Below the pieces are notes generated by a model. The model was not told the origin of the DNA. It searched no databases and saw only the letters and a list, made by a program, of their open reading frames with translations. The translations under genes were made by a program, and so were the position numbers. A stretch of DNA of 64,000 nucleotides from Martelella endophytica (GTDB taxonomy: Bacteria; Pseudomonadota; Alphaproteobacteria; Rhizobiales; Rhizobiaceae): assembly GCF_000960975.1 (NCBI RefSeq), contig NZ_CP010803.1, positions 3,396,273 to 3,460,272 of the forward strand, in the 5' to 3' direction. Shown piece by piece: positions 29 through 28,353 of this stretch. Within the stretch, counting starts at the first letter, position 1. Every line of letters starts with the position of its first letter.

Positions 29-337
<309 letters not shown>

Positions 338-364
338 CGGCCCATTTGCGGCAAGGAGAGAACC

Positions 365-739
365 ATGCCCAAGATCATATTCCAGCATCCGGACTTCGAT
401 GAAATCGAAATCTACGTGCCGGCGGCAAGCCACAAGCGCACGATTCTTTCGCTGGCAAAAGAGTTCAAGGTGCCGATCAACTTCGACTGTCAGGACGGTG
501 AATGCGGTACCTGCGTCATCCACGTCACCGATGCCGACGGAAACCCCACCAAAATGGGTGTGAACATGACGGAGAAGGAAAAGGCCGTCCTGCAGGAAAT
601 CGGCAAGATGTCGCGCGCCGAACTGGAACGGATCATCGTCGATGATCTGCCCGGCGAGTGGCGGCTCGCATGCCAGATGATCACGCGCGATGAGGATATC
701 CGCGTGACTTACGAGCGCATGCCGGAAGACCAGCCCTGA
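365..739 (+). CDS. FeSII (Shethna)-like [2Fe-2S] ferredoxin
   Basis: A 124-residue [2Fe-2S] protein with ligands C42, C47, C50 and C103. Between the third and fourth ligand it has a long charged helical insert (about residues 65-98, ending DDLPGEWRLAC). This length and insert match the FeSII/Shethna protein of Azotobacter, which binds oxidised nitrogenase and shields it from oxygen. Ordinary adrenodoxin-type ferredoxins are shorter and lack the insert. The protective role is inferred from this resemblance and from the nif context. A good RBS (AAGGAGA) precedes the ATG. Confidence 0.78.
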   Translation: MPKIIFQHPDFDEIEIYVPAASHKRTILSLAKEFKVPINFDCQDGECGTCVIHVTDADGNPTKMGVNMTEKEKAVLQEIGKMSRAELERIIVDDLPGEWRLACQMITRDEDIRVTYERMPEDQP

Positions 740-839: not shown

Positions 840-1949
840 TCAGTTGATTGCCGTAGGCGAACCTGGTGCATCTGGCTTGCCGGCTTCCGGGGCATTCAGG
901 TCCTCGATGAAGATGGCGGTGGTTCCGGCATCCTCCTCCAGCCTGATGCGCTGGCGCATCTCCGGCGTCATGTGGATGGCCCCGTCACTGTCAACCAGAA
1001 GCACGAGGCTGAGGCCCATCAAGCGGGCCGTCTCACGCCAGTGCTCGGATCCGGCCACGGAAAGTGCTGTGGCCGCTGCATCGGCAAGGGCGCCGTTTTC
1101 GGCAATGACGCTCGCGGAAACGACGCCGCCCACCGGCCGGCCGGTGCGCGGATCGAGAATGTGGGAGTAGCGGATGCCGGCATCTTCGCGGTAGCGGAAG
1201 TAATTGCCAGAGGTGTAGAGCACCTCGCCGGGTTTGAGTTCGACAGAGGCGATTGCGCCCCAGCCGCTCGGGTCACGGATCGCGACCCGCCAGGCTTTCG
1301 CACCGTTGCGGCCGATGACGTTCACATCGCCGCCGGCATTGAGCACGGCATCAATCACGCCCGCATCCTGCAAGGTGCCGGCCGCCCAGTCCAGCGCCGT
1401 GCCCTTGGCAAAGCCGCCGAAATCGAGGCTGACGGCTGGATTGTTCGAATAGACCTCCTGGCCGTCAATGTGGATATCCGCCATGGAGGGGTGGGCTGCC
1501 ACGAGCGTCTCGATCGCTTCATCCGTTGGCGGAGGGCCGATGGGCAGATCATCGCTGTGAAAGCCCCAGAGACCGATGAGAGCCCCGATGGCCGGGTTGA
1601 ACAGGCCGCCGCTTGCGGCCTCAAGCTTTTGCCCCTGAAGGATCGCTTCGGCGAGGAGCGGGGAGACGGTCATGCTTTCGCCCGCCGCGAAGGCGGCATT
1701 CAGCCGCGTCATTTCACCGGGCTGCCAGGCATGCCAGTCGCGGTGCATGACGGTAAATTCCGCCGAGATCGCCGGCAGGATGCGTTCGGCCGCTCGTCGT
1801 TCGCTTTCCGGCACGACGATTTCCACCAGCGTGCCAAAGACATAGAGCGTATAATGCCGGTCGGGCGTCTCCCGCTGGAAGCCCCAACACGCCGCCGCGC
1901 CGGCAATCGACAGGGCAAGGGTTGCCGAAAGCAGGCGTTGCCGTCGCAT
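840..1949 (-). CDS. apbE: FAD:protein FMN transferase
   Basis: A 369-residue member of the ApbE family, which attaches FMN covalently to Thr or Ser in target proteins such as RnfG and RnfD. Family motifs are present: DFGGFAKG (usually DLGGIAKG), VLNAGGDVNVIG and SHILDPRTGRPV. The N-terminus is a hydrophobic export segment ending near a Cys (AGAAAC), so the protein is likely periplasmic and possibly a lipoprotein. Its start overlaps the rseC stop (TGATG). It is the third gene of an operon behind a NifA/sigma-54 promoter, which fits supply of flavin to the NifA-driven Rnf complex encoded at 23-28 kb. Confidence 0.93.
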   Translation of the reverse strand: MRRQRLLSATLALSIAGAAACWGFQRETPDRHYTLYVFGTLVEIVVPESERRAAERILPAISAEFTVMHRDWHAWQPGEMTRLNAAFAAGESMTVSPLLAEAILQGQKLEAASGGLFNPAIGALIGLWGFHSDDLPIGPPPTDEAIETLVAAHPSMADIHIDGQEVYSNNPAVSLDFGGFAKGTALDWAAGTLQDAGVIDAVLNAGGDVNVIGRNGAKAWRVAIRDPSGWGAIASVELKPGEVLYTSGNYFRYREDAGIRYSHILDPRTGRPVGGVVSASVIAENGALADAAATALSVAGSEHWRETARLMGLSLVLLVDSDGAIHMTPEMRQRIRLEEDAGTTAIFIEDLNAPEAGKPDAPGSPTAIN

Positions 1950-2446
1950 CAGCGCGCCTCGATGCGGATAGGAAGAAGCCTGGTGATGAGGCCTGGCATG
2001 CTGGCCACGCGCCGCGCCGCGAGGAAACCGATGACGAGACCGATAGCTGCGGCAAGAATGGTCATATCCTCGCTCGCCCCCGTCGAGGCCGCGACAACCG
2101 TCGCGAGGATCAAACCGGCGAGCGGCAGGAGGTAGGTCAGCATGGCGGCGGTCAGCAATCCGCTTTCTGGGACCGAAAGCGTGACGGCTTGGCCGATGGC
2201 GAGATCCCCCTCATGGGCGAGCTCAAGCCGGGTATCGGCTTTTCCGAGCATCTTGTGCAGGGATGATGAGCCACAATTCGTGGCGATTTCGCAGGCCGAG
2301 CAGGCGCTTTCCCGTCCGGTCTGGACGATCACCCGGTCGCGCCTGAAGCCGACCACCGTTGCGCGGGCCTCCACCAGCCTTTTGAGAGCGATACGGTCTT
2401 CCTGCGCGGGTTCGCAACAGTGGCCGCGTGTCATATGGTCGGTCAT
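1949..2446 (-). CDS. rseC: RseC/SoxR-reducing-system family membrane protein
   Basis: A 165-residue protein with an N-terminal Cys-rich part (CSACEIATNCG) and two closely spaced hydrophobic segments in the C-terminal half, the layout of RseC. In E. coli RseC works with the RsxABCDGE (Rnf) complex in keeping SoxR reduced, and RseC genes often accompany rnf genes. Here it is translationally coupled to both neighbours: its ATG overlaps the SIR2-like stop (ATGA) and its stop overlaps the apbE start. The Cys set suggests a metal or Fe-S site. A role in Rnf assembly or redox control is inferred. Confidence 0.82.
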   Translation of the reverse strand: MTDHMTRGHCCEPAQEDRIALKRLVEARATVVGFRRDRVIVQTGRESACSACEIATNCGSSSLHKMLGKADTRLELAHEGDLAIGQAVTLSVPESGLLTAAMLTYLLPLAGLILATVVAASTGASEDMTILAAAIGLVIGFLAARRVASMPGLITRLLPIRIEAR

Positions 2447-3291
2447 GATTGCACCAAAGCCTCCGTTTCAAGAAATTCGGATATGTCGGTTTCCACGATC
2501 TCGATGTTCTGCTTGGCGCAGTAGCGGCGCTCCTTGTCGCTGGGGTTTGCGATCAGCGCATAGCCGGCCGGCGTGCCGGCATCGTAGATGAGGTCACTCA
2601 TCACCATGCGCTCGGTATCGCGGATGAAACGCATGCCGCAGAACAGGTAGCGCTTGCCGCGCCGGGACGCCTTCAAAAAGGCTGGTATGGCGAAGCCCCC
2701 CATCAACTCCGTGATGTAGTCGACATAGTCGGCATCTGTCGCGATGTAGCCGGTGTCCGGCTCCGGCAAGCCCATGGGCTTGAACAGGACCGGCAGCGAT
2801 GGATCGGCGTCGTGGTTGTCGATCTGGCGATAGCTGCCGCCGTCATAATGAAAGAGCACATAGCGGAAGTCGGTGCCGCCGATACGTGCGAGCCCCTTGA
2901 TCAGAATATGCGGCGTATCGGCATAAATCTGCTGGAGCTGCAGGTCGCGATTGATGTCGATGATGTAGGGTGGCTTGAGCTGTGCCAGCCAGTCGAACAC
3001 GGCGCCACGAGTCCAGTTCTTCTGTCCATAGGTGTTGGTCAGGAACTGATAGACGGCCCGCCTGCCGCGTTTCAGCTCTATGTTCATCGCCGCGCGCGGG
3101 AATTCGAACATAAGTTTCGGCGCCATCGGCCGGCCCTTGTTCATCGCCAGGATCAGGCTGTCGCTGTCGGCGGGCATCGGCTCACCTGTCTCACGACCAC
3201 GAACATCTGCCAAAACGCCTGGCCCGAGATAGGGAACGATCTCGCCATCTGCGACGCCCTTCAGGATGTCGTCAAGGATCTGGTTGCGCAT
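2443..3291 (-). CDS. SIR2-like domain protein, NifA-regulated
   Basis: A 282-residue protein starting at the ATG at 3291, about 34 bases after the predicted sigma-54 start. The layout resembles the SIR2_2 type NAD-binding fold: an N-terminal PYLGPGVLADVRG loop (20-32), DINRD (112-116) where the family has TNYD, FKPMG (170-174) where it usually has F-K-x-H-G, then TDADYVDYI and a C-terminal LFCGMRF segment. By eye the catalytic His is Met, so it may bind NAD without normal sirtuin chemistry. It is the first gene of an operon with rseC and apbE, both Rnf partners. Function unknown. Such proteins occur in other nif regions as far as I recall. Confidence 0.7.
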   Translation of the reverse strand: MRNQILDDILKGVADGEIVPYLGPGVLADVRGRETGEPMPADSDSLILAMNKGRPMAPKLMFEFPRAAMNIELKRGRRAVYQFLTNTYGQKNWTRGAVFDWLAQLKPPYIIDINRDLQLQQIYADTPHILIKGLARIGGTDFRYVLFHYDGGSYRQIDNHDADPSLPVLFKPMGLPEPDTGYIATDADYVDYITELMGGFAIPAFLKASRRGKRYLFCGMRFIRDTERMVMSDLIYDAGTPAGYALIANPSDKERRYCAKQNIEIVETDISEFLETEALVQS

Positions 3292-3335
3292 CACGGCCTC
3301 GCTGGTTGTTGCAACAGAGCTTTCAACTTTGTCTA

Positions 3336-3351
3336 AGCAAGAACCGCGCCA
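3336..3351 (-). promoter_or_regulatory. Sigma-54 promoter for SIR2-like/rseC/apbE operon
   Basis: On the minus strand the bases read TGGCGC-N5-TTGCT, keeping the invariant GG (-24) and GC (-12) at the proper spacing. The transcript would start near 3325, 34 bases before the ATG at 3291. Confidence 0.78.
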
Positions 3352-3410
3352 GTGACGGTGTTTCCTTATAAGGAATTGAAATATATGTATTAAGGTGAGG
3401 TATGTTGTGA

Positions 3411-3426
3411 TGTCGCGTTTGCGACA
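3411..3426. promoter_or_regulatory. NifA upstream activator site (leftward operon)
   Basis: TGTCGCGTTTGCGACA is a TGT-N10-ACA NifA site, itself nearly a perfect palindrome. It lies about 60 bases upstream of the leftward -24/-12 promoter. Confidence 0.78.
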
Positions 3427-3477
3427 AAGCGAGTTTTGAGCATTGTCCTTCGATGATACTCTATCCCATCGGAGCGC

Positions 3478-3506
3478 GTCATCCTCGGGCTTGACCCGAG
3501 GATCCA
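3478..3506 (+). repeat. Palindromic intergenic repeat, copy 1
   Basis: A 29-base unit whose core is the inverted repeat CCTCGGG-CTTGA-CCCGAGG. An exact reverse-complement copy lies at 3597-3625 and further copies at 10549 and 10666. Such units are common between genes in Rhizobiales and can form hairpins in RNA. Confidence 0.85.
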
Positions 3507-3596
3507 ATCAGGGCGTTCGCGAGCAGAGTCAGCGGGCTCCAGACACAGCTCGTGCTACCTTAAGCCCCTTTTGTCGTCAGTTGCGTCAAGATTGCC

Positions 3597-3625
3597 TGGA
3601 TCCTCGGGTCAAGCCCGAGGATGAC
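3597..3625 (-). repeat. Palindromic intergenic repeat, copy 2 (inverted)
   Basis: Exact reverse complement of the unit at 3478-3506, with 90 bases between them. The pair sits directly upstream of the nifH NifA site. Confidence 0.85.
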
Positions 3626-3713
3626 GCCGGGGAAGAGGAAGCGCTGGGGCAGGATGCCCCCAGGTAGGGCGAAATGCTGGCCAGCCCTTTGGTCATTCCC
3701 TTCCACCGAATTC

Positions 3714-3729
3714 TGTTGGCTATCCGACA
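3714..3729. promoter_or_regulatory. NifA upstream activator site for nifH
   Basis: TGTTGGCTATCCGACA matches TGT-N10-ACA exactly and lies 99 bases before the nifH -24 element, the usual distance for looping activation by NifA. Confidence 0.82.
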
Positions 3730-3828: not shown

Positions 3829-3844
3829 TGGCACGGTGCTTGCA
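3829..3844 (+). promoter_or_regulatory. Sigma-54 promoter of nifH
   Basis: TGGCACGGTGCTTGCA is a full consensus -24/-12 promoter. The predicted start is near 3855, giving a leader of about 68 bases before the nifH ATG. Confidence 0.93.
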
Positions 3845-3862: not shown

Positions 3863-4801
<939 letters not shown>

Positions 4802-15926: not shown

Positions 15927-15954
15927 GATCTTTGTCGGGTTTGCGACAAAGATC
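15927..15954. repeat. 11-bp inverted repeat enclosing a NifA site
   Basis: GATCTTTGTCG and CGACAAAGATC are perfect 11-base inverted arms with a 6-base spacer, 36 bases after the nifQ stop. The repeat contains the mod-operon NifA site and could also form a terminator-like hairpin for nifE-nifQ mRNA. Confidence 0.7.
15933..15948. promoter_or_regulatory. NifA upstream activator site for modE-modABC
   Basis: TGTCGGGTTTGCGACA fits TGT-N10-ACA and lies 120 bases before the sigma-54 promoter ahead of modE. Confidence 0.75.
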
Positions 15955-23048: not shown

Positions 23049-23064
23049 TGTCGCAAAACCGACA
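23049..23064. promoter_or_regulatory. NifA upstream activator site shared by nifL and rnfA
   Basis: TGTCGCAAAACCGACA fits TGT-N10-ACA. It lies 78 bases from the rnfA -24 element and 95 bases from the nifL one, so it could serve both directions. Confidence 0.75.
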
Positions 23065-23142: not shown

Positions 23143-23158
23143 TGGCACGCTTGATGCA
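23143..23158 (+). promoter_or_regulatory. Sigma-54 promoter of the rnf operon
   Basis: TGGCAC-GCTTG-ATGCA keeps GG and GC; only the first T of TTGCA is changed. The predicted start is near 23169, about 57 bases before rnfA. Confidence 0.8.
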
Positions 23159-23225: not shown

Positions 23226-23807
23226 ATGGAACATTATCTCGTTATTCTTTTGGGCACGGCGCTCGTCAACAATGTGGTGCTGGTCAAATTCCTGGGGCTT
23301 TGCCCCTTCATGGGCGTGTCGAACAAGATCACGGCCGCGGTGGGCATGGGACTCGCCACCACCTTCGTGCTGACGATCGCCGCCACGGCCGGCTGGCTGG
23401 TCGAGCATTTCCTGCTGGCGCCCTTCGGCCTGACCTATCTGCGCATCCTCACCTTCATTCTGGTGATCGCGGCCGTCGTGCAGTTTACCGAAATGGTGAT
23501 GCGCAAGGTGTCGCCGATGCTGCATCAGGTGCTCGGCATCTACCTGCCGTTGATCACGACAAACTGCGCCGTGCTCGGCGTGGCGCTGCTCAATGTCCAG
23601 GAGAACCACAGTTTCGTCGAGAGCATGCTCTTCGGCTTCGGCTCGGCAGCGGGCTTTGCCATCGTGCTGGTGATCTTTGCGGGGTTGCGCGAGCGGCTTC
23701 GGCTTACCGCCGTGCCACCGTCCTTTTCCGGCGCGCCGATTGCATTTCTGACAGCGGGCTTCCTGTCGCTCGCCTTCATGGGCTTTGCCGGTCTGGTGAG
23801 CGGCTGA
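23226..23807 (+). CDS. rnfA: Rnf complex membrane subunit RnfA
   Basis: A 193-residue, six-helix membrane protein of the Rnf ion-translocating NADH:ferredoxin oxidoreductase, which drives electrons to low-potential ferredoxin for nitrogenase. Conserved parts are [22 protein letters not shown] and [12 protein letters not shown], whose Cys residues hold the membrane [2Fe-2S] cluster with RnfE. The ATG at 23226 gives the usual RnfA length; 23214 is an alternative. It is the first gene of rnfABCDGEH. Confidence 0.95.
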
Positions 23808-23835
23808 TGACGAAAACACATTCAGGAGTTCCCTA

Positions 23836-24372
23836 ATGATTGCAGCGATGCTCATTCTTCTGATGCTCGGGATCGCCCTTGGCGGCGGGCTCGGCGTGTC
23901 ATCTCGATTGCTGAAGGTTGAAACCAGTTCGGTCGTTGCCGAGCTCGAGGAAATCCTGCCCGGCACCAATTGCGGCCAATGCGGCTATCCCGGCTGCTCC
24001 GCTGCAGCCCAGGCATTGAGCGAGGGCACGGTGCCAGCCAATTTCTGTCCGCCGGGCGGCCGGAGCGTTGCCAGGGAGGTGGCTGCCAGGCTTGGCATCG
24101 ACCTCGACGTGTCAGCTGTGGCCGACAAGGGACCGGTGATCGCCTTCGTCATGGAAGACCTCTGCATCGGCTGCACCAAGTGCCTGAAGCGCTGCCCGAC
24201 CGACGCGATCGTCGGCGCTTCAAGGCAGATGCATGGCGTTGTCGATGACGCCTGCACGGGCTGCGAAGTCTGCGCATCGATTTGCCCGACCGGCGCCATC
24301 GTGCTGAGGCCGGAAGCGGCAACGCTACAAACCTGGTACTGGCCGAAGCCGGTCGCGCCGCTGGCTGCCTAA
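23836..24372 (+). CDS. rnfB: Rnf complex Fe-S subunit RnfB
   Basis: A 178-residue subunit: an N-terminal membrane anchor (about 1-25), a [4Fe-4S] domain with TNCGQCGYPGCSAAAQAL and a later Cys in FCPPGG, then a ferredoxin domain with CIGCTKCLKRCP and CTGCEVCASICP. It hands electrons from the complex to soluble ferredoxin. The length and Cys pattern are complete. Confidence 0.95.
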   Translation: MIAAMLILLMLGIALGGGLGVSSRLLKVETSSVVAELEEILPGTNCGQCGYPGCSAAAQALSEGTVPANFCPPGGRSVAREVAARLGIDLDVSAVADKGPVIAFVMEDLCIGCTKCLKRCPTDAIVGASRQMHGVVDDACTGCEVCASICPTGAIVLRPEAATLQTWYWPKPVAPLAA

Positions 24373-24382
24373 GGGGAACATC

Positions 24383-25876
24383 ATGAAGATTTTCCGCATA
24401 TCAGGGGGCATCCACCCCAAGGGCAACAAGGAGCTGAGCGCCGAAAAGGCGATCGAACCCGTGCCGATGCCAAGCGTGCTGCGCATTCCCTTGCAGCAGC
24501 ATATCGGTGCACCCGCCGTACCGATCGTGGCAAAGGGGGATGTGGTGAAGAAGGGCCAGCTTCTGGCCATCGCCCGTGGCGCTGTTTCCGCCCCCGTCCA
24601 TGCGCCCACCTCGGGCCGCATTGTCGCGATCGGCCGGTTTGTCGCCCCGCATGCCTCCGGGCTGCCGGGCGCGACCATCACCATGCGGCCGGATAGGCGC
24701 GATGAATGGGGAGAGCGCCTGCCGGCACTTGATCCGGCGACGGCCGAACCCTCGGCGCTTGCTGAACGGGTGGGAAGCTGCGGCATTGTCGGCATGGGCG
24801 GCGCAACCTTCCCTTCGGCCGTCAAGCTCAACCTGCGCAGCCGCCACGCGCTGCACACGCTGGTCATCAATGCCGCCGAGTGCGAGCCGTACCTGACCTG
24901 CGACGATCGCCTGATGCGGGAACGGACGGATGACGTTTTCGATGGAATTCGCATCATGGCGAAGGCATTGGGCGTCGCCAAAGTGCTCATCGCGATCGAG
25001 GGCAACAAGCCCGAGGCGCTTGCCGCATTGACCGGGGCCGCTCGCGCGACGGGCGACAAGTCGGTCGCCGTCGTCAAGGTGCCGACCCGCTATCCGATGG
25101 GTTCTGAAAAGCATCTCGTCCAGACGCTGACCGGGCTTGAAACCCCGGCTCGCGCCCTGACGGCGGATATCGGCATCGTCGTCCACAACGTCGCCACCGC
25201 CTATGCCGTTTACAAGGCCGTACGCCTTGGTGAACCGTTGATTTCGCGCATCGTCACCGTCAGCGGCAAGGCGATGGTCCGTACCGGCAATTTCGAAGTG
25301 CTGATCGGCACGCCGATTCACCACCTGATCAGCCATTGCGGCGGCCATGTTGAAGAGCCCGCACGGCTGCTGCTGGGCGGCCCGATGATGGGCCAGCCGA
25401 TTTCCAGCACCCGCGCTTCCATCGTCAAGGGCAGCAACGGGGTCCTGGCGCTCGCCGAAAGCGAAGTGCCATCGGGCAAGACCATGCCCTGCATTCGCTG
25501 CACCGCCTGTGTGGTGGCCTGTCCCTGCGGGCTGGCGCCGTTCGACATGGCGCAGCGCATTCGCAATGACGAACTGGACGGCGCGGTGAAGATCGGTCTG
25601 CTCGACTGTCTTTCCTGCGGCTCCTGCGCCTGGGTCTGTCCTTCGCACGTGCCGCTTGTCCAGTATTTCAACTACGCCAAGGGCAAGCTGACGGCCGAAC
25701 AACGGGCCAAGCACAAGCAGGAGGAAACCAAACGCCTGTCGCAATTCCGCGACATGCGGATGGACAAGCTGAAGAAGGCCAAGCAGGAAGCCATGGCGAA
25801 GATGATGGCTGAACGCGAGGCGAAGAAGAAAGCCGAGTTGGCTGAGGCTGCTGATGAAGCGAAGGTCACCGAATGA
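24383..25876 (+). CDS. rnfC: Rnf complex NADH-binding subunit RnfC
   Basis: A 497-residue subunit that binds FMN and NADH. GGIHPKGNKELS opens the protein. The NADH/FMN region includes GIVGMGGATFPSAVKL and NAAECEPYLTCDD. Two [4Fe-4S] motifs follow (CIRCTACVVACP and CLSCGSCAWVCP), then a charged, Lys/Ala-rich helical tail. It is the entry point of electrons. Its stop overlaps the rnfD start (ATGA). Confidence 0.95.
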   Translation: MKIFRISGGIHPKGNKELSAEKAIEPVPMPSVLRIPLQQHIGAPAVPIVAKGDVVKKGQLLAIARGAVSAPVHAPTSGRIVAIGRFVAPHASGLPGATITMRPDRRDEWGERLPALDPATAEPSALAERVGSCGIVGMGGATFPSAVKLNLRSRHALHTLVINAAECEPYLTCDDRLMRERTDDVFDGIRIMAKALGVAKVLIAIEGNKPEALAALTGAARATGDKSVAVVKVPTRYPMGSEKHLVQTLTGLETPARALTADIGIVVHNVATAYAVYKAVRLGEPLISRIVTVSGKAMVRTGNFEVLIGTPIHHLISHCGGHVEEPARLLLGGPMMGQPISSTRASIVKGSNGVLALAESEVPSGKTMPCIRCTACVVACPCGLAPFDMAQRIRNDELDGAVKIGLLDCLSCGSCAWVCPSHVPLVQYFNYAKGKLTAEQRAKHKQEETKRLSQFRDMRMDKLKKAKQEAMAKMMAEREAKKKAELAEAADEAKVTE

Positions 25877-26946
25877 GCATGGCGACACCGCTTGGCGGCC
25901 CCTTCACCCATTCCGGCGCCAGCATTTCGCGCACCATGACGCTGGTGATGGCCGCGCTTTTGCCCGCGACGATTTTCGGTCTGTATCAGTTCGGCTGGCC
26001 CGCGATTTTCCTGTTTCTGGTAACCGTCGTTTCGGCAGTACTTGCGGAATTTCTCGCGCTCAGAATGGCGGGAAAGCCGGTCATGCCGTTTATCAGCGAT
26101 GGCTCGGCGATGCTGACGGGCTGGCTGATCGCCATGTCGCTGCCACCATGGGCGCCGTGGTGGGTTGGCGTGCTCGGCTCTTTCATCGCCATTCTCCTGG
26201 CAAAGCATCCCTTCGACGGCATCGGTCAGAACCTGTTCAACCCGGCCATGGTGGCGCGCACCGTGCTGCTGATCTCGTTTCCCGTCGAGATGACCCGCTT
26301 TGTCGCACCCATGCCACTCGGCTCTGCGGATGCGCCCGGCTTCATCAGCGCGCTGGAGATCACGTTCGGGCTCGGCTCGCATTTCGATGCCATGTCCAGC
26401 GCCTCGTTCCTGGGCTCGGTGAAAACCCAGCTCGGGCAGGCTGAACGCCTGCCGGATATCCTGGCAAGCGGGTATCATCCCTTCGCGCTGGCCTTTGGAA
26501 CGGTGTCCGGGTCCACCGGGGAAACGTCTGCCCTGTTCCTGCTGGCCGGCGGCCTCTTCCTGCTCGCCACTCGGATCATCTCCTGGCATATCCCGATCGC
26601 GATGATCATCACGATGGTCGCGCTTTCCGGCATCTTCCACTTCATCGATCCCAACCATTTCCTCGGGCCGGTGATGGAGCTTTCCTCCGGCACCTTCATC
26701 TTCGCGACCTTCTTCATCGCGACCGATTACGTCACCGCGCCGTCGACCCCGTTGGGCAAGCTGATCTTTGGGGCAGGGGTGGCCGCACTCACCTTCCTGA
26801 TCCGCACATTCGCCGCCTATCCGGAAGGGGTGGCCTTCTCCATCCTGCTGATGAATGCCACCGTGCCGATCATTGACCACACCATCCGCCCCCGCATCTA
26901 TGGCCGCACCCGCAAGGGCGTGCCGATCCAGCACAAGCCGAAGTGA
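25873..26946 (+). CDS. rnfD: Rnf complex membrane subunit RnfD
   Basis: A 357-residue multi-spanning subunit with covalently bound FMN in characterised homologues. Conserved segments include LFNPAMVARTVLLISFP and FFIATDYVTAPST. The expected flavin acceptor region reads DAMSSAS (172-178), where relatives have Thr in the last position (DxxS/T-x-A-T), so the acceptor would be Ser178. It is coupled to rnfC by ATGA. ApbE, which attaches the flavin, is encoded at 840-1949. Confidence 0.94.
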   Translation: MSMATPLGGPFTHSGASISRTMTLVMAALLPATIFGLYQFGWPAIFLFLVTVVSAVLAEFLALRMAGKPVMPFISDGSAMLTGWLIAMSLPPWAPWWVGVLGSFIAILLAKHPFDGIGQNLFNPAMVARTVLLISFPVEMTRFVAPMPLGSADAPGFISALEITFGLGSHFDAMSSASFLGSVKTQLGQAERLPDILASGYHPFALAFGTVSGSTGETSALFLLAGGLFLLATRIISWHIPIAMIITMVALSGIFHFIDPNHFLGPVMELSSGTFIFATFFIATDYVTAPSTPLGKLIFGAGVAALTFLIRTFAAYPEGVAFSILLMNATVPIIDHTIRPRIYGRTRKGVPIQHKPK

Positions 26947-26953
26947 GGTCGCA

Positions 26954-27661
26954 ATGTCAAAGACAGAGAGCACCAGCCGGCGCCTGCTGAAAAATCCCTT
27001 CAAAAGAGAGAGCGAAGCCTCGCAGCGGGCCGAACGTCAACCGCGCAAGGCGCGCTCGCCCTGGTACCTCGCGGGGCTTCTGGGCGCCTTTTCGGTTGTC
27101 GGAGCGGCGCTGCTCGGAAGCGGGTTCGCGGCCACCGAAGAGGCGGTGCAAAACCGCCAGCGCGAGGATCTTTTGTCCTCGCTTTCGCTCGTCATTCCGC
27201 CAGCCATGCACGACAACGACATCGTTGCCGACAGCTTTGTGCTGGCGCTCGGCGATGGCCGGACCCTGACGGTCTATCCGGCGCGCGAGAAGGCGGTCAT
27301 TCAGGCGGTGGCCTATGAGGTGACGGGGCAAGGCTATGGCGGGGCCATCCGTATTCTGATGGGGATCGGCGCGGACGGCACCATTCTCGGCGTTCGGGTG
27401 CTGCAGCATGCCGAAACGCCCGGCCTTGGCGACAGGGTGGAGGCCGCCAAGAGCGACTGGATCGAGGCCTTTTCCGGAACCTCGCTCACCAATGTTTCGG
27501 CAAGTGGCTGGGCGGTAAGGAAGGACGGTGGCCGCTTCGACCAGTTTTCCGGCGCGACCATCACGCCGCGCGCCGTCGTCAAGGCGGTGCACGAGGGGCT
27601 CGAGTTCTTTCAGATCCACCGCGATGCGCTGACCGCAATGCCAATGGAGAACCAGTCATGA
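26954..27661 (+). CDS. rnfG: Rnf complex flavoprotein subunit RnfG
   Basis: A 235-residue protein with a basic N-terminal tail, one membrane helix (about 38-60) and a periplasmic FMN-binding domain. The acceptor motif SGATIT (199-204) predicts FMN on T202 through ApbE. HAETPGLGD is the usual RnfG/NqrC segment. The ATG at 26954 follows the rnfD stop by 7 bases. The N-terminal extension (about 35 residues) is longer than in E. coli RsxG. The stop overlaps rnfE (ATGA). Confidence 0.94.
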   Translation: MSKTESTSRRLLKNPFKRESEASQRAERQPRKARSPWYLAGLLGAFSVVGAALLGSGFAATEEAVQNRQREDLLSSLSLVIPPAMHDNDIVADSFVLALGDGRTLTVYPAREKAVIQAVAYEVTGQGYGGAIRILMGIGADGTILGVRVLQHAETPGLGDRVEAAKSDWIEAFSGTSLTNVSASGWAVRKDGGRFDQFSGATITPRAVVKAVHEGLEFFQIHRDALTAMPMENQS

Positions 27662-28353
27662 CAACGCCCTATCGTCGCATCATCGCCGACGGCCTCTGGT
27701 CCAACAATGTCATCTTCTCGCAGATGCTGGCACTTTGTCCGCTGATGGCGGTGACGGGGACGGCGACCAACGGACTTGGCATGGGGCTCGCAACAACGGC
27801 GGTATTGATCGCGACCGGCAGCTCGGTGGCGGCACTGCGGAGGATCATCGAGCCGGAGATCCGCATTCCCGCCTTTGTGCTGATCATCGCCGTTATCGTT
27901 ACGCTCGTCGAGATGGCGATGAACGCCTGGCTTCATGATCTCTACAAGGTGCTCGGCCTGTTCATTCCGCTGATCGTGACCAATTGCGCCATTTTCGGGC
28001 GGGCGGAGGCGTTTGCCTCCCGCGAAGGGGTGCTGGCATCTGCCGTAGACGGAATGATGATGGGCCTCGGCTTCACGCTGGCGCTTGTCGTGGTTGGCGC
28101 CGTTCGCGAAATCCTCGGCTCCGGCACGATCTTTGCCAATGCCTCGCTCCTGCTTGGCGCGCGTTTCGGCTTTCTGCAGACGACCGTCATTCCGGACTAC
28201 AAGGGCTTCCTGCTGCTGGTGCTGCCGCCCGGCGGCTTCTTCGTGCTCGGTCTGCTGCTGGCGGCAAAGCGCGCGGTCGAGCGGCGGCGCGGGCAGGCGC
28301 GCGTGACTGGCGCCGAAGCGCCACAGGCCGAAATCCAGCAGATAACGCTTTGA
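27658..28353 (+). CDS. rnfE: Rnf complex membrane subunit RnfE
   Basis: A 231-residue membrane protein related to RnfA. LWSNNVIFSQMLALCPLMAVT near the N-terminus and TNCAIFGRAEAFAS carry the Cys residues that share the intramembrane cluster with RnfA. It is coupled to rnfG by an ATGA overlap. Confidence 0.95.
   Translation: MTTPYRRIIADGLWSNNVIFSQMLALCPLMAVTGTATNGLGMGLATTAVLIATGSSVAALRRIIEPEIRIPAFVLIIAVIVTLVEMAMNAWLHDLYKVLGLFIPLIVTNCAIFGRAEAFASREGVLASAVDGMMMGLGFTLALVVVGAVREILGSGTIFANASLLLGARFGFLQTTVIPDYKGFLLLVLPPGGFFVLGLLLAAKRAVERRRGQARVTGAEAPQAEIQQITL

Follow-up and report, generated by a model that had tools for sequence, protein, structure and literature searches.

A predicted SIR2-fold protein, very probably PnfA, heads a NifA/sigma-54-type operon with a split RnfF in Martelella endophytica

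A 64,000-nucleotide stretch of Martelella endophytica DNA (NZ_CP010803.1, positions 3,396,273 to 3,460,272; hereafter the window), part of a single-contig genome of 4.81 Mb, carries beside nifH a small operon in which a gene for a SIR2-like protein precedes rseC and apbE. The SIR2-like protein is very probably the orthologue of PnfA, described as PST1325 in Pseudomonas stutzeri A1501 in 2010 (PMC2820453). What is new here is that PnfA is predicted to have the SIR2 NADase fold, keeping the catalytic Asn and, among the homologues counted, never the catalytic His. As a tentative reading, the likeliest of those weighed, the operon would be a NifA/sigma-54 accessory unit for nitrogenase electron supply, with PnfA as a non-hydrolysing nicotinamide adenine dinucleotide (NAD(H)) protein supporting Rnf, and with RseC and ApbE maturing the Rnf complex.

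The operon lies on the reverse strand, divergent from nifH. The SIR2-like gene (2443..3291) encodes 282 residues (31.85 kDa) and matches the Pfam family SIR2_2 at 33.5 bits against a cut-off of 24.5; NCBIfam gave no family match for the protein. It is followed by rseC (1949..2446), of the RseC/MucC family (RseC_MucC, PF04246, 88.6 bits), and by apbE (840..1949), of the FAD:protein flavin mononucleotide (FMN) transferase family (ApbE, PF02424, 219.5 bits), both above cut-off. Neighbouring genes overlap end to start, with 4 nt (ATGA) shared by the SIR2-like gene and rseC and 1 nt by rseC and apbE. This makes plausible the translational coupling of all three that was given in an initial annotation of this DNA, made from the sequence alone.

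Structure modelling confidently predicts for the SIR2-like protein the SIR2 NADase fold of ThsA and DSR2. The protein and its close relatives are termed type I below. It has 4412 homologues at E <= 1e-3, and the residue counts that follow are from the best 120 of these, among which mean column identity is 65%. The catalytic Asn, N114 in the window protein and the counterpart of ThsA N112 by profile alignment of type I, type II (a second subtype, below) and ThsA rather than by coordinate superposition, is kept in 120 of 120. The position of the catalytic His (ThsA H152) is Met173 in the window protein and holds Met in 104 homologues, Leu in 14, Ile in 2 and His in none. The initial annotation had read FKPMG at this site, without the catalytic His, and had called the protein SIR2-like; it was right on the first point, and the predicted fold agrees with the second. 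Type I profiles found no match in a sequence search of the PDB at E 1 or 10, the type II profile matched ThsA, and hhalign places the two subtypes in one family with a probability of 99.9%. The window protein has just two Cys in all and hence no four-Cys zinc module, so that neither the catalytic His nor the Cys4 zinc module of sirtuin deacylases is present. Compared with the SIR2-domain NADases of defence systems (ThsA, DSR2, KomC), it lacks the catalytic His and any effector or sensor domain, is nif-bound in its distribution and has no match in PADLOC. Two other identities were considered for the gene and rejected, namely a deacetylase or active NADase, in view of the missing His and the two Cys, and a defence gene, in view of the PADLOC result and the nif-bound distribution.

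The identity with PnfA is drawn from position, promoter, size, distribution and annotation, and thus from a match by description, not by alignment; no named PnfA of Pseudomonas/Stutzerimonas or Azotobacter is among the 120 matches listed for one Pseudomonadales orthologue. As the accessible text of the 2010 report has it, pnfA is transcribed away from nifH, is preceded by a -24/-12 element together with a TGT-N10-ACA site, is NifA/RpoN-dependent by quantitative reverse transcription PCR, and encodes a 31.7 kDa protein for which the authors found homologues in diazotrophs only, with a second subfamily at ~20% identity (PMC2820453). That text likens PnfA to UspA and ETF-alpha, not to SIR2 (PMC2820453), and PST_1325 has elsewhere been named a SIR2 family protein (PMC11332353). 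The window gene shares the divergence from nifH, both promoter elements, the size and the restriction to diazotrophs, all 17 type I genomes among the 397 surveyed in its order carrying nifD, and it differs in heading an operon with rseC and apbE. The initial annotation knew of no description of such a link; the gene itself has very probably been in print since 2010, together with a mutant phenotype. At 0.5% O2, the non-polar, complemented pnfA mutant retained 23% of nitrogenase activity, less than any other among nine mutants, with nifH transcription unchanged; under strict anaerobiosis its activity was close to that of the wild type, itself low there, and nitrate-supported fixation was lost (PMC2820453). 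No published link of a PnfA-like protein to Rnf, rseC or apbE was found in the literature listings and paper passages searched, which cover few subscription papers.

Control of the operon by NifA and sigma-54, proposed in the initial annotation, is supported by sequence elements in the window and, for pnfA, by the printed expression data cited above. A -24/-12 (sigma-54) promoter, TGGCGCG-GTTC-TTGC, lies at 3337..3351 on the minus strand, and a palindromic NifA upstream activator site (UAS) of the form TGT-N10-ACA, TGTCGCGTTTGCGACA, lies at 3411..3426 on the same strand, 59 bp from it. Both are pattern matches, the first at a position conserved in orthologues. Among 89 distinct upstream regions of type I orthologues, 82 have a -24/-12 match 70–130 bp before the PYLG codons (at least 8 of 11 fixed positions, a threshold picked after an earlier look at promoter scores), and 58 have a UAS 45–110 bp further upstream of it. 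Of 24,600 stretches taken at random from the loci of the 82 positive cases, 4.5% have the -24/-12 match and 0.43% its combination with a UAS; the survey left out loci L107 and above, L001, L082 and L109, mostly duplicates. Within the window, TGGCRCG-N4-TTGC occurs three times against 0.38 expected, a count reached in none of 100 shuffles, and the sites precede the SIR2-like operon, nifH and nifE. Genome-wide, the pattern gives 25 matches against 13 for its reversed form, which is weak taken alone. TGT-N10-ACA is found seven times in the window against 5.65 expected, and 36 of 100 shuffles reach seven; with no enrichment over chance, this pattern therefore counts by position only, and five of the seven sites stand upstream of the SIR2-like operon, nifH, nifE, rnfA and a modE open reading frame (ORF). 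The last of these, the UAS-like TGTCGGGTTTGCGACA at 15933–15948, precedes the modE ORF (16073), and the best -24/-12 match downstream of it reaches only 6/11.

The other two genes of the operon point to Rnf. The window contains rnfABCDGE (23226..28353, plus strand, from NCBIfam matches) on the nifHDK side, ~20 kb from the SIR2-like operon, and the earlier claim that rnf is also driven by NifA is consistent with its own UAS at 23049–23064 and a -24/-12 element at 23143–23157 (10/11), both upstream of rnfA on the plus strand. RseC has a CX2CX5C motif at residues 49–58 and, by hydropathy, hydrophobic stretches from near residues 95–107 and 124–131, and the N-terminus of ApbE is hydrophobic. RnfG of the window carries SGAT, which we take to be the motif for FMN attachment by ApbE; in RnfD, no attachment motif of this type was found except SGAS near the N-terminus. 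A second ApbE is encoded elsewhere in the genome. Both RseC and ApbE are in print as parts of Rnf/Rsx systems, in keeping with the link drawn initially, and are described as homologous in part to the N- and the C-terminal portion, respectively, of Rhodobacter capsulatus RnfF; of the E. coli RseC motif, the last three cysteines are conserved (PMC11729352). By this homology, rseC and apbE together make up a split RnfF, and RnfF is a known partner of Rnf. As in R. capsulatus, an RseC-like part with CX2CX5C and an ApbE part occur in a nif cluster beside rnf with NifA-type control, whereas RnfF is a single fused protein and the window has two overlapping genes downstream of the SIR2-like gene.

With N114 kept and Met173 in place of His, PnfA would bind, but not hydrolyse, NAD(H) or a similar nucleotide. 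It may in this way keep NADH-driven electron flow through a nif-dedicated Rnf going when respiration, too, draws on the electrons. As a split RnfF, RseC and ApbE would mature that complex, ApbE by attaching FMN (at SGAT of RnfG) and RseC by assisting through its CX2CX5C cysteines. The absence of catalysis in PnfA, and the steps that lead from its fold to NAD(H) binding, and from co-occurrence to an action on Rnf, are those that we infer. A NifA-driven, diazotroph-specific SIR2-fold protein that keeps only the Asn of the catalytic pair, is needed for full nitrogenase activity under active respiration, occurs among the surveyed genomes only in those with Rnf and in the window shares an operon with a split rnfF is best read, tentatively, as a non-hydrolysing, NAD(H)-responsive electron-supply factor.

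The association with Rnf was surveyed in 397 genomes of the window's order, of which 67 have nifD. Type I is present in 17 of the 397 (485–522 bits), all within the 67. rnfC was searched in the 67, with the 330 genomes without nifD outside the search, and is above cut-off in 17, the same 17 as type I; an eighteenth match (G266) is below cut-off. Twelve of the 17 are of one genus, so the complete match represents five families, not 17 events. A type II profile built from weaker matches (A3), and applied with the 21 type I genomes left out, found full-length type II in 47 of the other 50 nif-carrying, rnfC-negative genomes of the order; of the remaining three, G385 has a fragment, and G361 and G035 gave no match. 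One subtype or the other, type II at full length, is present in 64 of 67. Of 34 further nif-carrying genomes drawn from the phylum, four have type I (all with rnfC), five have type II (one, G539, with rnfC) and 25 have neither, 21 of these having rnfC (19 with a single match). Among named type I genomes, rnfC was found in 50 of 50 (the first 50 of 80 loci), with at least two matches in 48, some partial; three of the 50 (L005, L013, L040) repeat order genomes, and outside the order housekeeping Rsx copies inflate the co-occurrence. Type I was thus not seen without Rnf in the surveyed genomes, and Rnf does occur without type I.

Type II belongs to the same family and also sits in nif clusters, but, unlike the window protein, it lacks the catalytic Asn in 53 of 53 cases (Trp in 52, Gly in 1), keeps the His in 41 of 53, and lies mostly downstream of nifT. 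A nifT-like ORF is found upstream on the same strand, within 1.4 kb, at 48 of the 53 loci; one of the 53 (G281) is downstream of nifT in a genome with no nifD match at the threshold used. Loci L127–L131 and L142–L181 hold this second nif-linked subtype. Published examples, assigned to type II by gene order only, include Rcc03262 of R. capsulatus, a species that also has rnf, in the operon nifB1-rcc03265-nifZT-rcc03262, where the protein was not found in a nifA double mutant (PMC6925177), and the nifZ-nifT-SIR2 arrangement of Rhodovulum nif clusters (PMC9412634). In Zymomonas mobilis, the SIR2 protein gene of the nif island, ZMO1821, is up under N2-fixing conditions (PMC8600466, PMC8594446). 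Within loci of up to 20.9 kb, many of the type I ones being short contigs and a few repeating one genome, fixC was found at 3 of 11 type II loci (L131 in G539, L135 in G281 and L136 in G209) and at 0 of 95 type I loci; in G539 it accompanies type II in the nif region.

The order SIR2-like gene, then rseC–apbE, recurs in four genomes of three families (f1, f13, f49), each unit divergent from nifHDK and facing ferredoxin genes; in G014 contig ends interrupt the neighbourhood. In three genomes (G060, G086, G097) a haemerythrin-family gene stands between the SIR2-like gene and rseC–apbE (PF01814 in G097 and G086, sequence similarity in G060), joined in G060 and G097 by a small ORF. In these three the ferredoxin genes stand between this unit and rnf, whereas the rnf of the window is on the nifHDK side. 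The haemerythrin-family gene is at L115:6228–6740 and L122:12677–13402, in two families, and a NifA-controlled oxygen-binding protein would fit. Near the 80 named orthologue loci, within the flanks covered, no ApbE and one weak RseC match (L038, 41 bits) were found by phmmer at E 1e-3 with single window sequences, a search that a distant RseC may escape. The L038 gene (L038:5596) lies between nifX and a DUF269-like gene in a Thiohalocapsa genome, and a gene for a "sigma E factor regulatory protein" is reported in the Azoarcus BH72 nif cluster (PMC3916325). The junction of the SIR2-like gene with rseC and apbE, on which the initial annotation built, is local.

Several observations weigh against an electron-supply role through Rnf. 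Nitrogen-free semisolid medium still supports growth of the pnfA mutant (PMC2820453). In ThsA, neither the N112A nor the H152A variant bound NAD+, and loss of the His may therefore also cost PnfA its NAD binding. In the order, rseC is found in 5 of the 67 nif-carrying genomes, all with type I and rnfC and with apbE adjoining each time, and thus in just 5 of the 17 type I genomes, the other 12, of one genus, having no RseC. One genome (G737) has an rnf operon ~37 kb from nifD and neither subtype (L138–L140), and in G539 rnfC occurs together with type II. Given these two genomes and the type II genes of rnfC-negative nif clusters, the family as a whole goes with nif, and a link to Rnf holds only at the level of the subtype. 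The idea of an Rnf partner and nothing else was rejected on the same grounds; of the initial suggestion of an Rnf partner, the co-occurrence of type I with rnfC stands (17/17 in the order, 4/4 in the phylum, 50/50 among named genomes), and a tie of the whole family does not. Finally, the window NifK scores 912–1128 bits against seven type I loci, the lowest uncut type I value being 899 bits, and 606–636 bits against five type II loci. The subtype therefore follows the nifDK lineage, and common descent of the clusters may account for its match with Rnf. Since NifK scores set the two kinds of cluster apart, subtype is confounded with both donor module and nif lineage; type I and Rnf do co-occur, but the lineage of the nif cluster is a confounder of that tie.

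Much of this would also be expected if PnfA were a general nitrogenase helper, whether in protection from oxygen or reactive species or in maturation or stability of NifH or NifDK, with Rnf, rseC and apbE sharing only lineage and the NifA regulon. Such a role in protection or maturation is only slightly less likely than the electron-supply reading, given that the family is nif-wide in the order, that type I often adjoins nifH as type II follows nifT, that the subtype tracks NifK similarity, that three of the 17 type I genomes have the haemerythrin-family gene in the operon, and that oxygen protection is one option named by the pnfA authors (PMC2820453). However, the mutant defect persists in nitrate respiration without oxygen (PMC2820453), which oxygen protection leaves unexplained. 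It is improbable that the SIR2-like gene is functionally unrelated to rseC–apbE and simply came to precede a split rnfF in some few lineages. The named loci without ApbE, the genes intervening in G060, G086 and G097 and the opposite placement of rnf there, which shows the surroundings not to be fixed, would suit that explanation, but the gene order recurs across three families with the same orientation to nifHDK and the ferredoxin genes. More improbable still is that PnfA consumes NAD+ as an active deacylase or NADase with nif proteins as its targets; the SIR2 fold and the supposed deacetylase activity of ZMO1821 (PMC8600466) would favour it, and it is opposed by the missing His in all 120 homologues counted, the two Cys of the window protein and the missing Asn of type II.

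As to the surroundings of the operon, nifH (3923..4801, plus strand) has its own promoter at 3829–3843 and its own UAS at 3714–3729. Two 2Fe-2S ferredoxin-like genes (47..739, plus strand, PF00111) are convergent with apbE, and the downstream regions of many type I orthologues contain similar ones. At 3477–3632, in the stretch that separates nifH from the SIR2-like gene, the element tcctcgggcttgacccgagga is present in two inverted copies, which resemble dispersed repeats of alphaproteobacteria.

These findings bear on the way in which diazotrophs adjust the NADH-driven reduction of ferredoxin to what nitrogenase requires when respiration draws on the same electrons. pnfA was left in 2010 with a strong phenotype and no mechanism, and now has a predicted SIR2 fold with an incomplete active site; moreover, the exact split of its two subtypes by the presence of rnfC within one order yields a specific and testable idea. 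It is conceivable, although doubtful, that proteobacterial nif clusters in general employ a catalytically disarmed SIR2-fold protein to gauge NAD(H) and adjust the electron supply of nitrogenase accordingly, each of its two forms being paired with a low-potential electron donor driven by NADH, type I with Rnf and type II with FixABCX. If true, such a gauge would be a re-use of the fold by which phage-defence systems destroy NAD+. In practical terms, PnfA is a candidate part for moving nitrogenase into new hosts, and the split rnfF suggests that ApbE and RseC be included when a nif-type Rnf is transferred.

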